Below are positions 16,440 through 62,420 of a DNA stretch of 64,000 nucleotides, in pieces. A program made the translations under genes and the position numbers. Position 1 is the stretch's first letter. The number at the start of each line of letters is the position of its first letter. Origin of the DNA: an uncultured Ruminococcus sp. (GTDB lineage Bacteria > Bacillota > Clostridia > Oscillospirales > Ruminococcaceae); the NCBI GenBank assembly GCA_947624295.1, contig CANQJV010000006.1, positions 1 to 64,000 on the forward strand, written 5' to 3'. The notes below the pieces were generated by a model. It did no database searches and had not been told where the DNA came from. It saw nothing but the letters and a program-made list of their open reading frames with translations.

Positions 16440-17168
16440 ATGACAAACGACAATAATAATGAACTTACTATTGAACAGCTTAAAAACAAATACCGTTCAT
16501 ATGGCTATGATACGCTTACAAATGATGAGAAAATCCGCCTTTTTCTTTCATACTCCGAAAAAGGTAAAAATCTTGACAAAGCAACTGAAATTATTACAAA
16601 AACATTCGGGAATATACATATTGCTTCTGATTCAGGCGTAGTTTTCCTCATGAATGTGTGCAAATTAAGCACATCAAGCGCAGTTTTACTGAGCCTTATC
16701 CCTGCATTCAGCAATATTTATACATTTGAAGAATACAGCAAACTGCAACTCAATTCATCTGAAAATGCCAAAGAATTTTTCTCCGCACTCCTGAAAAATA
16801 ATCACTTTGAAAAATCAGTTGTAATTGCACTTGACAAAAAATTCAATATCATAAATCAACTGATTTTTTCGAATGAAGAAATAGACAGGGTAAATTTACC
16901 ATTTAGAAAAATATATGAATTTGCACAAAATGATTCTATAAAATATGTGATTATTTCACATTGCCACCCCGACGGAAATGCTTTTCCGTCAAATGATGAT
17001 ATAAATACAACATTGAAAATAAAAGAAATGCTTAATATGGCTGATACTGTCCTTGTTGACCATATAATAGTAGGTTCTGACAACGCTTTGTCAATGCGTG
17101 AATACCTGAAAGAAAATATTTTCGATGATGTTAAAAATTATAACATATCTACCTCCACGGGTGAATAG
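16440..17168 (+). CDS. RadC-like JAB-domain protein (intact metal motif)
   Basis: 242 residues. It has the same architecture as the preceding gene, but the JAMM motif is intact: I-S-H174-C-H176-P-D-G-N-A-F-P-S-N-D-D187, followed by V-D-H-I-I-V-G-S. It may be an active metalloenzyme. The helix-hairpin-helix part is less conserved than in its neighbour. It is almost certainly co-transcribed with it. Its 3' end overlaps the converging C39-like gene by 20 bp. Confidence 0.8.
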   Translation: MTNDNNNELTIEQLKNKYRSYGYDTLTNDEKIRLFLSYSEKGKNLDKATEIITKTFGNIHIASDSGVVFLMNVCKLSTSSAVLLSLIPAFSNIYTFEEYSKLQLNSSENAKEFFSALLKNNHFEKSVVIALDKKFNIINQLIFSNEEIDRVNLPFRKIYEFAQNDSIKYVIISHCHPDGNAFPSNDDINTTLKIKEMLNMADTVLVDHIIVGSDNALSMREYLKENIFDDVKNYNISTSTGE

Positions 17169-18144
17169 TTACCGCTTGACTTCCGAGTTCCTTGTAACGC
17201 TGTTCAGCCGTTTCCTTTTTGTACGGTACTGCTGAACCTTTCAGTGGGTCATTGAAATAATAGTTTTCCTCATCATAACCCACAAGCACAAGGCAATGTT
17301 CATTAGAAATCCAGTTGAATTTCTCACCTGTTTCCTTTATAGTCCACGCATTTTCGTCAACTACAGTCTTACTCATACCTATACTCGCCCATATGATAAC
17401 AGGGTCGCCGAAATCTATATATTCAATGCAGAGGTCACGCAAACTCAAACCCGAAAGATTAGCAGCGTCAAAATACTCATTATCAAGATATTTCTCCAAA
17501 CCGTTGAAAATTACAGGCGCATAACAACCATATCCGCTTTCGCTCCGTGGATTACCTATAAACACTTTTGCAGGGTCTGCGCAATACATATTGTTATCGT
17601 CGCCGTACTCAATATCAGCCTGTTTTATGTACCCTTTGTCAATCAAATCGCCTGCTGATATATCAAATCCATAGAATTTCAACAGCATTGACGCACTGAC
17701 AAGTTCACAACCTGTAGGGTACTCCTCTTTTTGTGAAATATACGGGACATCTATGCATACAAAATCATTTTCCGCAACCGTTGTAACTGTTTGTTTAGTT
17801 GATTCAGGCGGATTTGTAGTGATTTGTTTTGTGGCAGTTGATTTTTCTGTAACAGGCTTAGTTTCGGGTATTTCGGGAATATCTGTAAATTCGGGCATAT
17901 CAGAAATTTCAGGGGAATCGTCTATATCGGGAATTTCAGAAAAGTCCGGCATATCAGAAAATTCAGAGGAATCGTCTATATCGGAATTTTCAGAAAAATC
18001 GGGATTTTCCGGTTCATAATCAGGTTCTGTATAGTCAGAAAATAACGTATTATCTTCGAACATAGTTTCTATAGAAGGTTCATCACTGCACGAACACATT
18101 GTTAAAACAGCAGCGCAAATAACGAATATTTTTAATTTATTCAT
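17149..18144 (-). CDS. lipoprotein with C39-like papain-fold peptidase domain
   Basis: 331 residues. The signal peptide ends in lipobox M-C-S-C (Cys19). Residues about 35-125 form a Pro/Glu/Ser/Thr linker with imperfect repeats of D-F-S-E-I-P-D-I-D-D-S-type units. The C-terminal domain matches Peptidase_C39_2: Y-I-S-Q, Y-P-T-G-C146-E-L-V-S-A-S-M (candidate nucleophile), then N-E-H-C-L-V-L-V-G-Y-D (His) and Y-F-N-D-P (Asn/Asp). Such proteins are exported cysteine peptidases or adhesion-related proteins; the substrate is unknown. The linker repeats imply slippage-prone DNA. Confidence 0.75.
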   Translation of the reverse strand: MNKLKIFVICAAVLTMCSCSDEPSIETMFEDNTLFSDYTEPDYEPENPDFSENSDIDDSSEFSDMPDFSEIPDIDDSPEISDMPEFTDIPEIPETKPVTEKSTATKQITTNPPESTKQTVTTVAENDFVCIDVPYISQKEEYPTGCELVSASMLLKFYGFDISAGDLIDKGYIKQADIEYGDDNNMYCADPAKVFIGNPRSESGYGCYAPVIFNGLEKYLDNEYFDAANLSGLSLRDLCIEYIDFGDPVIIWASIGMSKTVVDENAWTIKETGEKFNWISNEHCLVLVGYDEENYYFNDPLKGSAVPYKKETAEQRYKELGSQAVTIHPWR

Positions 18145-19423: not shown

Positions 19424-19449
19424 AAAAAAGCACTCCTCTCCGGGAGTGC
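19424..19449 (-). terminator. SAM-controlled attenuator terminator of metK
   Basis: On the minus strand GCACTCC (19449-19443) pairs with GGAGTGC (19436-19430) and is followed by TTTTTT. It lies between the aptamer and the metK ribosome binding site, as expected for a transcriptional SAM-I switch. Confidence 0.9.
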
Positions 19450-19468: not shown

Positions 19469-19730
19469 CCTCATCTTCCGGAAATATACCGCAGAATTTA
19501 GCACCGTTATACTATACTGAACTCTATTGCAACTGCCACATATCTAACTGCATAAATTCCGCCTGTCTGCGTCATCGTCCTCACCATACACAAAGTATGC
19601 TTTCGTCCTCTTCCTTGACAAGCGAAATTTCTGCTTGTTATCTATTGTGCCAATTGCAACAGAGTTCAGTATTAAAAATATAGGTTGCCGGACTTCATAG
19701 GCTCTGTTGCCTCCGTCGCTCTTGATAAGG
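19469..19730 (-). promoter_or_regulatory. SAM-I (S-box) riboswitch with a large insertion in P3
   Basis: The minus strand holds the S-box core. P1 pairs CCTTATC (19730-19724) with GATGAGG (19475-19469). CAAGAG, GGAGGCA and CCGGCAACC mark the P2/kink-turn region. The 3' side has GGTGCTAAATTC and GGAAGATGAG. The aptamer is normally about 100 nt. Here it is 262 nt because a 159-bp self-complementary element (19514-19672) replaces the P3 tip. All core segments are intact, so SAM binding is probably kept (inference). Confidence 0.9.
19514..19672. repeat. structured repeat element, copy 1 (inside riboswitch P3)
   Basis: Arms 19514-19540 and 19646-19672 are complementary over 27 nt: as minus-strand RNA, 26 of 27 positions pair, two as G-U. 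Between them is a core (19565-19620) nearly identical to 62314-62368. It contains a CATAC/GTATG hairpin flanked by two GAGGACGA-type segments on the minus strand. A small hairpin (ACAAGC/GCTTGT) sits beside it. No coding potential was seen. It could be a MITE-like insertion or a structured RNA module. Confidence 0.75.
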
Positions 19731-19739
19731 TATGATTAT

Positions 19740-19768
19740 ATTATACTACACGAATGCAGGTTTGTCAA
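19740..19768 (-). promoter_or_regulatory. metK: promoter of the metK leader
   Basis: On the minus strand TTGACA (19768-19763) and TATAAT (19745-19740) are 17 bp apart. Transcription would start near 19733, just before aptamer P1. Confidence 0.85.
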
Positions 19769-19813: not shown

Positions 19814-19916
19814 ATGCCTAAACCAAGCCGATTATTACACTTTAGCCGTACCCATTATCCACAATTTACAAGAGGTGTTACCGACAAGGTTTATTCACTT
19901 TTCTACCTATAATTAT

Positions 19917-19988
19917 AATATCACAATTTTTATCAAATGTCAATGATAAAATTGTGAAAATTTAACGAAAATTTATTTTTTCCTGTAA
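19917..19988. repeat. 72-bp direct repeat, copy 1
   Basis: It matches 20300-20371 at 69 of 72 bases, in the same orientation. It contains an internal inverted repeat (CACAATTTT...AAAATTGTG). On the minus strand it ends in a remnant that reads N-Y-R-K-K-stop, matching the AraC C-terminus (S-Y-R-K-K-stop). Confidence 0.85.
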
Positions 19989-20001
19989 TTTGTCAAAATT
20001 A

Positions 20002-20274
20002 TCACTCATTTTTTTCTAAAGGAACGGCTCTTACATTCATTTCTTTTTTAACAGGAAAAGAAACGGAAAAAGTCGTATTTTCAACATCATCTTCATTTTT
20101 TTCATAATATGGCAGATTTTCAGCAAAACATTTCTCATTATTTATATATGCCGTTTCTATTGGTAGTTCATTTTTTTTTTCATTGCCATTTGCATATGAA
20201 AATAATGCAGAAGTACAAGAGATTCCGACAAGAGCGATTGCTCCGAAAACGATTATTATAGATTTGATTTTCAT
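20002..20274 (-). CDS. small exported protein of unknown function
   Basis: 90 residues. The N-terminus is a signal peptide or anchor (I-I-I-V-F-G-A-I-A-L-V-G-I-S), with a possible cleavage site near S-Y-A-N. The remainder is charged and has no recognised domain. AGGAGG precedes the ATG. The gene is bracketed by two copies of a 72-bp repeat, one of which covers the araC 3' end, suggesting it arrived or was trapped by a local duplication. Confidence 0.55.
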   Translation of the reverse strand: MKIKSIIIVFGAIALVGISCTSALFSYANGNEKKNELPIETAYINNEKCFAENLPYYEKNEDDVENTTFSVSFPVKKEMNVRAVPLEKNE

Positions 20275-20299
20275 AATGCAGACCTCCTTTTGTTTCTAC

Positions 20300-20371
20300 A
20301 ATATCACAATTTTTATCAAATGCTAATGATAAAATTATGAAAATTTAACGAAAATTTATTTTTTCCTGTAA
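20300..20371. repeat. 72-bp direct repeat, copy 2 (covers the araC 3' end)
   Basis: Same sequence as 19917-19988 with three substitutions. Its right part encodes the last residues and stop of the AraC regulator, and the rest is the downstream intergenic sequence. Confidence 0.85.
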
Positions 20372-21117
20372 CTCGTCGGAGTAACTCCCACAATCTTTTT
20401 GAATTGCCTCATAAAATGCTCCTCGTTATCGTAACCGCACATCGCCGCAACCTGCGAAACTGTACAGCCCGTTTCGCTGAGTATCTCCTTCGCTTTCTCG
20501 ATTTTACCGCTGATTACGTCCGTCATACACGATACACCGAAAGTTTCACGATAAATATGCTGGAAATATGAACGTGACATATTCACATACGCCGACATAG
20601 TATCAACATTCCATTTCAATTGCGGATTACGGTATATTTTCTCACGCAGTTCAATCAGCGCACTGTAATGCGGTTCAGTAGCCGTATTGACGTTATCCCC
20701 GTGAATACAGCTCTCGGACGTTTTCATCAGCAACGTTTTCATCATAAAATCAAGCATTTTCACACGCCTGCCGTTCATGGAATAAAATTCCGCTGTAATA
20801 TCCCTGATAAGCAGGCTTATAAATTCACTGTCGGCGTTGCTTATCGGGGTATTGAATCCAACATCAATGAAATCCGTATCTTTATCAGTTTCAAACGAAA
20901 TCCAGTCGCACACAAGAAAATCGTCTGCTGACGAATAATCGACAGCAGTCGTCCCGTCGTATATTATCAGCGTATTTTCAGGTGAAATTTTGCCGTTTAT
21001 CTTTATTTTACTCCGTGCCAACACCAACAGGCAATTATTCCCGTTGTCGGATTTATAGCTGTAATCGCTCTCATAAATGCAATTCCAGCCGACTGAAATT
21101 ATATTCAAAAAAATCAC
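20356..21117 (-). CDS. AraC-family transcriptional regulator
   Basis: 253 residues. The N-terminal part is a cupin-like sensing domain. The C-terminal two helix-turn-helix motifs read S-A-Y-V-N-M-S-R-S-Y-F-Q-H-I-Y-R and V-S-Q-V-A-A-M-C-G-Y-D-N-E-E-H-F-M-R-Q-F-K-K, ending G-V-T-P-T-S-Y-R-K-K. The ligand is unknown; the N-terminus resembles sugar-responsive members. It overlaps the aag stop by 4 bp, so it is translated from the same message as aag and rqcH. Confidence 0.88.
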   Translation of the reverse strand: MIFLNIISVGWNCIYESDYSYKSDNGNNCLLVLARSKIKINGKISPENTLIIYDGTTAVDYSSADDFLVCDWISFETDKDTDFIDVGFNTPISNADSEFISLLIRDITAEFYSMNGRRVKMLDFMMKTLLMKTSESCIHGDNVNTATEPHYSALIELREKIYRNPQLKWNVDTMSAYVNMSRSYFQHIYRETFGVSCMTDVISGKIEKAKEILSETGCTVSQVAAMCGYDNEEHFMRQFKKIVGVTPTSYRKK

Positions 21118-62262: not shown

Positions 62263-62420
62263 ATACTCTCCGTTGCTACAAACTGTCCGGTAATACTGAC
62301 ATAAAACCTGTCTGTCTGCGTCATCGTACTCGCCATACGACAGTATGCTTTCGTCCTCTTCCTTGACATACGGATTTTCTGTTCAGCATTCTCTGGACAC
62401 TTTGCAACAGCGGAGAGTAT
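62263..62420. repeat. structured repeat element, copy 2 (3' of spoVG)
   Basis: 158 bp. Arms 62263-62288 and 62395-62420 pair at 23 of 26 positions, the outer 10 perfectly (ATACTCTCCG/CGGAGAGTAT). The core at 62314-62368 matches 19565-19620 at about 51 of 56 positions, in the same orientation. The arms differ in sequence from copy 1 except for a shared ATACT end and TTGC segment. It lies 19 bp past the spoVG stop, on the spoVG-sense strand. Confidence 0.75.

Follow-up and report, generated by a model that had tools for sequence, protein, structure and literature searches.

Can a riboswitch aptamer take up a whole repeated element within one of its own helices and still work as a riboswitch? 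The question is raised by the metK leader in a 64,000-nucleotide stretch of an uncultured Ruminococcus genome (positions 1 to 64,000 of contig CANQJV010000006.1, hereafter the window), in which the loop of helix P3 of a SAM-I (S-box) aptamer is occupied by a long hairpin that recurs elsewhere in the same genome.

Insertions into riboswitches have been treated before, by Barrick and Breaker (2007; PMC2258182), where riboswitches are described as tolerating long ‘variable insertions’ folded into stem-loops. The window insert resembles these in forming a stable stem-loop where the aptamer can accommodate one, with the core undisturbed, but differs in that its origin can be named here, a repeated, mobile-looking element. 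A second precedent comes from the pneumococcal trp leader, in which two T boxes are separated by a BOX repeat and which still seems to work by the authors’ RNA-seq (PMC3049150). As in the window, an interspersed hairpin repeat is co-transcribed in a riboswitch leader; however, BOX sits between riboswitches and outside any aptamer helix. No account of a repeat placed within an aptamer was found in the open-access literature among the matches listed, judged by titles and abstract openings. An earlier note on this DNA had known of no described case, which agrees with the listed matches as regards a repeat inside an aptamer, but needs narrowing with regard to variable insertions and to BOX between T boxes, both of which are described in those two sources.

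Aptamer Core and Predicted Fold of the metK Leader

All S-box segments named in the earlier note were found in order on the minus strand, and the parts of the leader are listed in Table 1. The likeness to SAM-I (RF00162) comprises P1-P4, the conserved core, metK downstream and an intrinsic terminator, and the genomic context, with metK following and a predicted terminator as expression platform, is that of a SAM-I member. The terminator scan assigned the stem in the metK leader to the plus strand only. Unlike a typical SAM-I aptamer, the leader holds a 157-bp repeat in its P3 loop, and hence the model aligns only its 5′ half properly: RF00162 gave 32.7 bits (E 1.8e-5) against a cut-off of 44.4, no match within the window reaching its cut-off, and the alignment consists of a proper 5′ half followed by a spurious tail from P3 on. 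We take this score below the cut-off to be an effect of the P3 insert, not of non-membership in SAM-I.

Table 1. Features of the metK leader, its insert and related loci (window coordinates unless a locus is named).
Feature	Position	Strand	Remarks
metK leader promoter, predicted	19740..19768	−	TTGACA, 17 nt, TATAAT; 12/12 consensus letters, by consensus scan only
SAM-I (S-box) aptamer of metK	19731-19469	−	Between consensus promoter and metK
P1, 5′ strand CCUUAUC	19724..19730	−	Sequence; pair probabilities 0.99-1.0 with insert
P2 (GAC/GUC outer, AGGC/GCCU inner)	19691..19717	−	RF00162 alignment, folding, congener comparison
P3, 5′ strand CCUAUA	19679..19684	−	Folding and congener comparison
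Hairpin insert in P3 loop, repeated element	19515..19671	−	157 bp, TA at each end
Element core, conserved	19562..19621	−	GUCAAGG, three tandem G.A steps separated by single Watson-Crick pairs, GAAAGC/GGUGA loop, AUAC...GUAU apical stem
P3, 3′ strand UAUAACGG	19504..19511	−	Folding and congener comparison
S-box conserved segment GGUGCUAAAUUC	19494..19505	−	Sequence and congener comparison
P4 (CGG...CCG)	19479..19491	−	Folding; ambiguous register, 0.36 and 0.5-0.6 for two registers
P1, 3′ strand GAUGAGG	19469..19475	−	Sequence and folding
Intrinsic terminator, predicted, GCACUCC-CGGAGA-GGAGUGC-UUUUUU	19424..19449	−	Stem −11.1 kcal/mol
metK, S-adenosylmethionine synthetase, 395 aa	18219..19406	−	All three S-AdoMet_synt Pfam domains
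Second element copy within the window	62264..62419	−	147.4 bits with model R1; without Rfam family there
Long-P3 S-boxes in three Oscillospiraceae MAGs (three species)	L096:1828-2027; L097:897-1098; L098:2611-2813		P3 hairpin of ~150 nt each

Conservation of the core was assessed against the aptamers of 18 congeners, with the window aptamer excluded from the set that defined the invariant columns. With the insert left out, the window aptamer keeps 58 of 58 such columns; under leave-one-out, six of the 18 congeners break one or two invariant columns, against none broken by the window. Among columns kept in at least 16 of the 18 congeners it retains 73 of 77, differing at four positions that are conserved in 16-17 of them.

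Folding together with the congener columns places the SAM-I core and its helices in the leader, P1-P4 still being predicted with the insert in place. The pair probability of P1 is 0.99-1.0 both with and without the insert, that of the P3 CC/GG pairs is 0.95 with it versus 0.66 without, and that of the outer P2 pairs 0.48 versus 0.35, with P4 pairing nearly the same in the two forms. The terminator is predicted to form in both, and folding with and without the insert resolved no antiterminator pairing. The leader as a whole folds at −115 kcal/mol, compared with a shuffle mean of −69.9 (z −9.9; 0 of 100 shuffles as low). The earlier note had described the aptamer as apparently intact and had held that the view of a tolerated or functional insertion would fail if P1 and P3 could not form around the insert; both helices form in the folding, and with all invariant columns kept the aptamer does appear to be intact.

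Two further repeats were observed near the leader. An 81-nt direct repeat (93% identical, window 19914-19994 and 20297-20377) lies upstream of it, its copies flanking a small ORF (20002-20274), and window 17864-17998 holds tandem 27-nt-spaced units inside ORF 17149-18144, where they encode a Ser/Pro/acidic repeat stretch.

The Insert Is One Copy of a Repeat Family

Counted from TAC to GTA the insert measures 157 bp (19671-19515), which corrects the 159 bp first given for it. Its ends form 21-22 uninterrupted pairs, or about 28 across bulges, and in the predicted fold the arms continue P3 as one stacked helix, as had been proposed. From an alignment of 34 full-length copies (A1) a covariance model, R1, was built; it aligns along the whole insert (157/157 positions) with a score of 153.0 bits, the window copy being itself one of the 34 sequences. 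In the genome of the window, a single draft of 69 contigs that is 85% complete, R1 gave 53 matches at E ≤ 0.01, which after subtraction of 16 opposite-strand duplicates mark at least 37 distinct places, a lower bound in that scoring covered 150 of the 1897 candidates from the first look. Many partial copies of the insert were also returned when the same genome was searched at the DNA level. The repeat status claimed for the insert was thus confirmed, both by the second copy in the window and by the number of places in the genome.

The family extends to other members of the genus. Among 100 genus genomes, with up to 8 candidates scored per genome, matches at E ≤ 1e-4 were found in at least 12 congeners in addition to the genome of the window, and R1 matches occurred in 16 of 20 chosen genomes (that of the window included), with 123 in G088 and 86 in G017 when both strands are counted. 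No Rfam family reached its cut-off over the element in the window or in sets of 15, 20 and 20 loci, which are partly the same places.

Short, multi-copy and bounded by terminal inverted repeats, the element is MITE-like in these respects. TA is present at both of its ends, TA having been chosen as the end when copies were delimited. The search for an IS630-type transposase was confined to PF13358, which had 0 matches in the 85% complete genome, and an IS630 parent for the element was dropped as a candidate; since this transposase was not found, mobility and a TA duplication are what we infer for the element. Relative to flanking genes no orientation bias was seen (17:12 on the left and 16:14 on the right, at 30 of the 37 places, with ORFs called only roughly), which favours a mobile element over a cis-regulator, and a regulatory role argued from element orientation was likewise abandoned.

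Some copies have settings or forms of their own. At L185:1501-1774 in the genome of the window, a copy with different arms and on the opposite strand (1501-1656) separates a TTGACA-17-TATAAT promoter, read by eye, from an FMN riboswitch, whose aptamer (1657-1774) it abuts. Another copy (L174:1056-1214) is located ~40 nt downstream of the RNase P RNA gene, and some copies (L006-L011) hold an additional ~60-nt hairpin-rich insertion within the core, a repeat within a repeat. Near SRP RNA, a short core-less element (L024:1500-1577) has ends resembling those of the window insert (ACTAAAATCTGTTGCAA...), so insert-like ends also occur without the core.

Element Anatomy and Strand Bias

The consensus structure of the element shows double changes at 31 of 51 pairs in A1, and 95.7% of cells pair, compared with 78.0% in shuffles and 29-46% when the alignment is slid; the copies are related, and these pair counts are not independent events. 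Several arm types, each self-complementary, surround one common core, the arms falling into 8 clusters at 72% identity, a threshold of our own under which some clusters are related. Among 53 distinct cores, located with a motif that required the GAAAG/GGT letters, tandem G.A is present at step 1 in 31, at step 2 in 38 and at step 3 in 50, and the single pairs between the G.A steps, which are of several pair types, are canonical in 53, 40 and 52 of the 53.

In all 46 elements tested (46/46), folding favours the core strand over its complement. A bias between the strands is also visible in the arms, where distinct mismatches summed over clusters comprise 93 of G.U type versus 27 of A.C type, all 8 clusters pointing in the same direction; this count is taken from an arm alignment that treats G.U and A.C alike, and the copies are not independent. 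The structure-based count of 144 G.U to 19 A.C cells was made on a structure predicted for the core strand and leans towards G.U. In elements of a second type, recognized by model R2 (see below), the mismatch bias is weaker, at 44 to 26. The need for two double-stranded terminal repeats would not by itself yield a G.U bias, so that one-strand folding has apparently been kept. Folding of one strand, as RNA or as ssDNA, therefore seems to be maintained in the element family; a mutational cause of the G.U bias in the arms is possible.

SAM-I Leaders Across the Genus

RF00162 matched in 118 of 125 genus genomes, that of the window included, and 116 of these matches exceed the cut-off; the two below it come from the window and from G061, where a contig end truncates the match. 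The seven genomes in which RF00162 had no match may be incomplete, or their leaders may have been missed. Matches over the cut-off span 85-135 nt, with G071 at 189 nt as the sole exception; moderate P3 extensions are represented by spans of 135 nt in G148 and 126 nt in G028. Among the 118 matched genomes, with the contig-cut G061 set aside, only the window and G071 showed an insert in P3 that reaches about 100 nt or exceeds it. The pattern CGGCAACC-N120-180-GGTGCYAAWTYC found the window alone among the 125 genomes, in a form that misses congeners reading CAGCAACC. The earlier note had reasoned that a tolerated or functional insertion would be a mistaken view if close relatives all carried an unrelated long P3; in the genus, the relatives mostly have a normal P3.

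The S-box of G071 (L108, G071:C4:22343-22531) has an imperfect P3 hairpin of ~100 nt that is unrelated to the window element. It was considered as a repeat and rejected, the whole insert being single-copy in G071 and the four other matches covering 18-34 nt at E about 0.004 or worse.

Long P3 Hairpins in Other Oscillospiraceae

S-boxes with a P3 gap of 165-195 nt were sought in the genome_contigs collection (described as covering 84,980 species), in a scan that, using one gap range and one strict pattern, will have missed other long-P3 cases. Of the 19 loci returned, three are real long-P3 S-boxes (L096-L098). By reading, 11 are tandem S-boxes (L090-L095, L099, L100, L104, L105, L107) and five are chance matches (L089, L101, L102, L103, L106), the match at L106 beginning in a normal S-box and ending by chance. 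Tandem S-boxes such as L090, L105 and L107 fit the same long-gap pattern, but they consist of two complete aptamers with the P3 insertion absent.

The three long-P3 leaders, 82-83% identical, have P3 gaps of 174-177 nt and all precede metK, which was identified as an ORF in L096 and by eye from the letters in L097 and L098. Their consensus structure, predicted from those same three sequences, places 68 of 92 pairs within P3: 41 without change, 10 with compensatory and 7 with one-sided changes, and 10 that at least one of the sequences breaks. Repeats elsewhere in G150 and G151 match the apex and architecture of this P3 hairpin, and the model R2, built from 8 repeats of G150 and G151 with the P3 inserts left out, finds the three inserts at 70.5, 66.5 and 49.0 bits. 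Among 61 sampled genomes from the genus to which G151 (carrying L098) belongs, 57 have SAM-I, with spans of 69-111 nt, G151 itself excepted. Repeated hairpins thus appear to have entered the P3 of the S-box at least twice, and an insert of other origin once (G071). P3 looks like a recurrent, permissive landing site, since other lineages carry large P3 hairpins independently, one of them shared by three species.

A relationship between the two kinds of repeated hairpin was also considered. R2 scores the window insert at 33.4 bits and R1 scores L127, a repeat in G151, at 40.2 bits; the first look with R1 had given 0 matches in G149-G151 and evidently misses some, since L127 is in G151. On the P3 inserts of L096-L098 R1 found none, the best score being 8.9 bits, in L097. 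The opposite strand of true element copies scores 27-52 bits, and hairpin shape alone may therefore explain these cross-matches. From the sequences, membership of the window element and the L096-L098 element in one superfamily is suggestive only.

A Probable Passenger in a Tolerant Loop

We consider it likely that the metK riboswitch still works, with a mobile hairpin accommodated in one of its tolerant loops, and that the insert is a passenger. A copy of the MITE-like palindromic repeat, whose identity, copy number and position are read directly from the DNA, would have entered the AT-rich loop of P3 in the metK leader at a TA dinucleotide. The two arms of the element would pair mutually and prolong P3, and in the computed fold the element projects outward as a single long helix. 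The SAM-binding core, intact at the level of its letters, would be unchanged by the insertion, as would P1, P2, P4 and the terminator. In the SAM-I structure the tip of P3 points away from the SAM pocket, so that lengthening should be harmless. We infer a mobile origin, this order of events, and a riboswitch in which SAM sensing and attenuation of metK have most likely persisted.

The switch might instead have been weakened or broken, with metK now constitutive or driven from a promoter at the junction between insert and flank. A promoter-like sequence, GTGGCA-17-TATAGT (9/12), does run across the insert end (19539-19511), and a start there would skip P2 and the 5′ strand of P1. However, 9/12 is the lowest score listed and is shared by 4 of 5 scan sites, with 1.4 sites expected in shuffles, and the upstream 12/12 promoter is intact; with the 58 invariant positions unchanged and the aptamer kept in folding, we regard loss of the switch as unlikely. 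Co-option of the insert as a second input, as the earlier note had suggested, would have a protein, an RNase or a ligand acting at the element core to shift metK termination or mRNA stability. Such a role would fit a core that is conserved whatever the arm type and whose single pairs between the G.A steps change compatibly, the coincidence here of the better-folding core strand with the metK sense strand, and the P3 hairpin of similar architecture common to three other species. The same core family is present, however, at about 36 other genomic places with no orientation bias to flanking genes, so that conservation of the core needs no role at metK, and among matched genomes the element stands at metK in this genome only. 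Evidence for a second input was not found, and we hold it to be quite unlikely; cleavage of the long P3 helix by an RNase is possible.

Two explanations would do away with the insertion itself. Joining of a repeat copy at the wrong place during assembly might be suspected in a 69-contig draft with many element copies, but the insert is deep within a 92,971-base contig, about 19.5 kb from its start, and the closest other copy in the assembly has 90% identity over 87 of 201 bases, a divergence such that no assembly copy could have supplied the insert sequence; an artefact is very improbable. That P3 is natively long in this species is barely credible: P3 length does vary in the genus, as the spans in G148 and G028 show, but the repeat model covers the insert over its full length, and the pattern search found it in none of the other genomes among the 125 of the genus.

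The passenger reading could be widened. The repeats might form an undescribed RNA-structured mobile class, defined by a tandem-G.A core, interchangeable self-complementary arms and selection for the fold of one strand, that repeatedly colonises P3 of the metK SAM-I riboswitch and whose hairpin can become a lasting part of the regulator, as a protein- or RNase-binding arm, in the manner of the L096-L098 species. We find this wider proposal conceivable and, on the whole, doubtful.

For riboswitch biology, repeated hairpins settling in permissive loops, where they lengthen the helix of the host RNA, would be a concrete source for long ‘variable insertions’. Congeners without the insert and the species of the window with it would form natural pairs in which the tolerance of a riboswitch may be gauged. 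The locus also marks a blind spot of model-based searches, in that a riboswitch with an intact core scores under its Rfam cut-off. Finally, it exposes a large family of hairpin repeats, whose bias towards folding of one strand calls for explanation.
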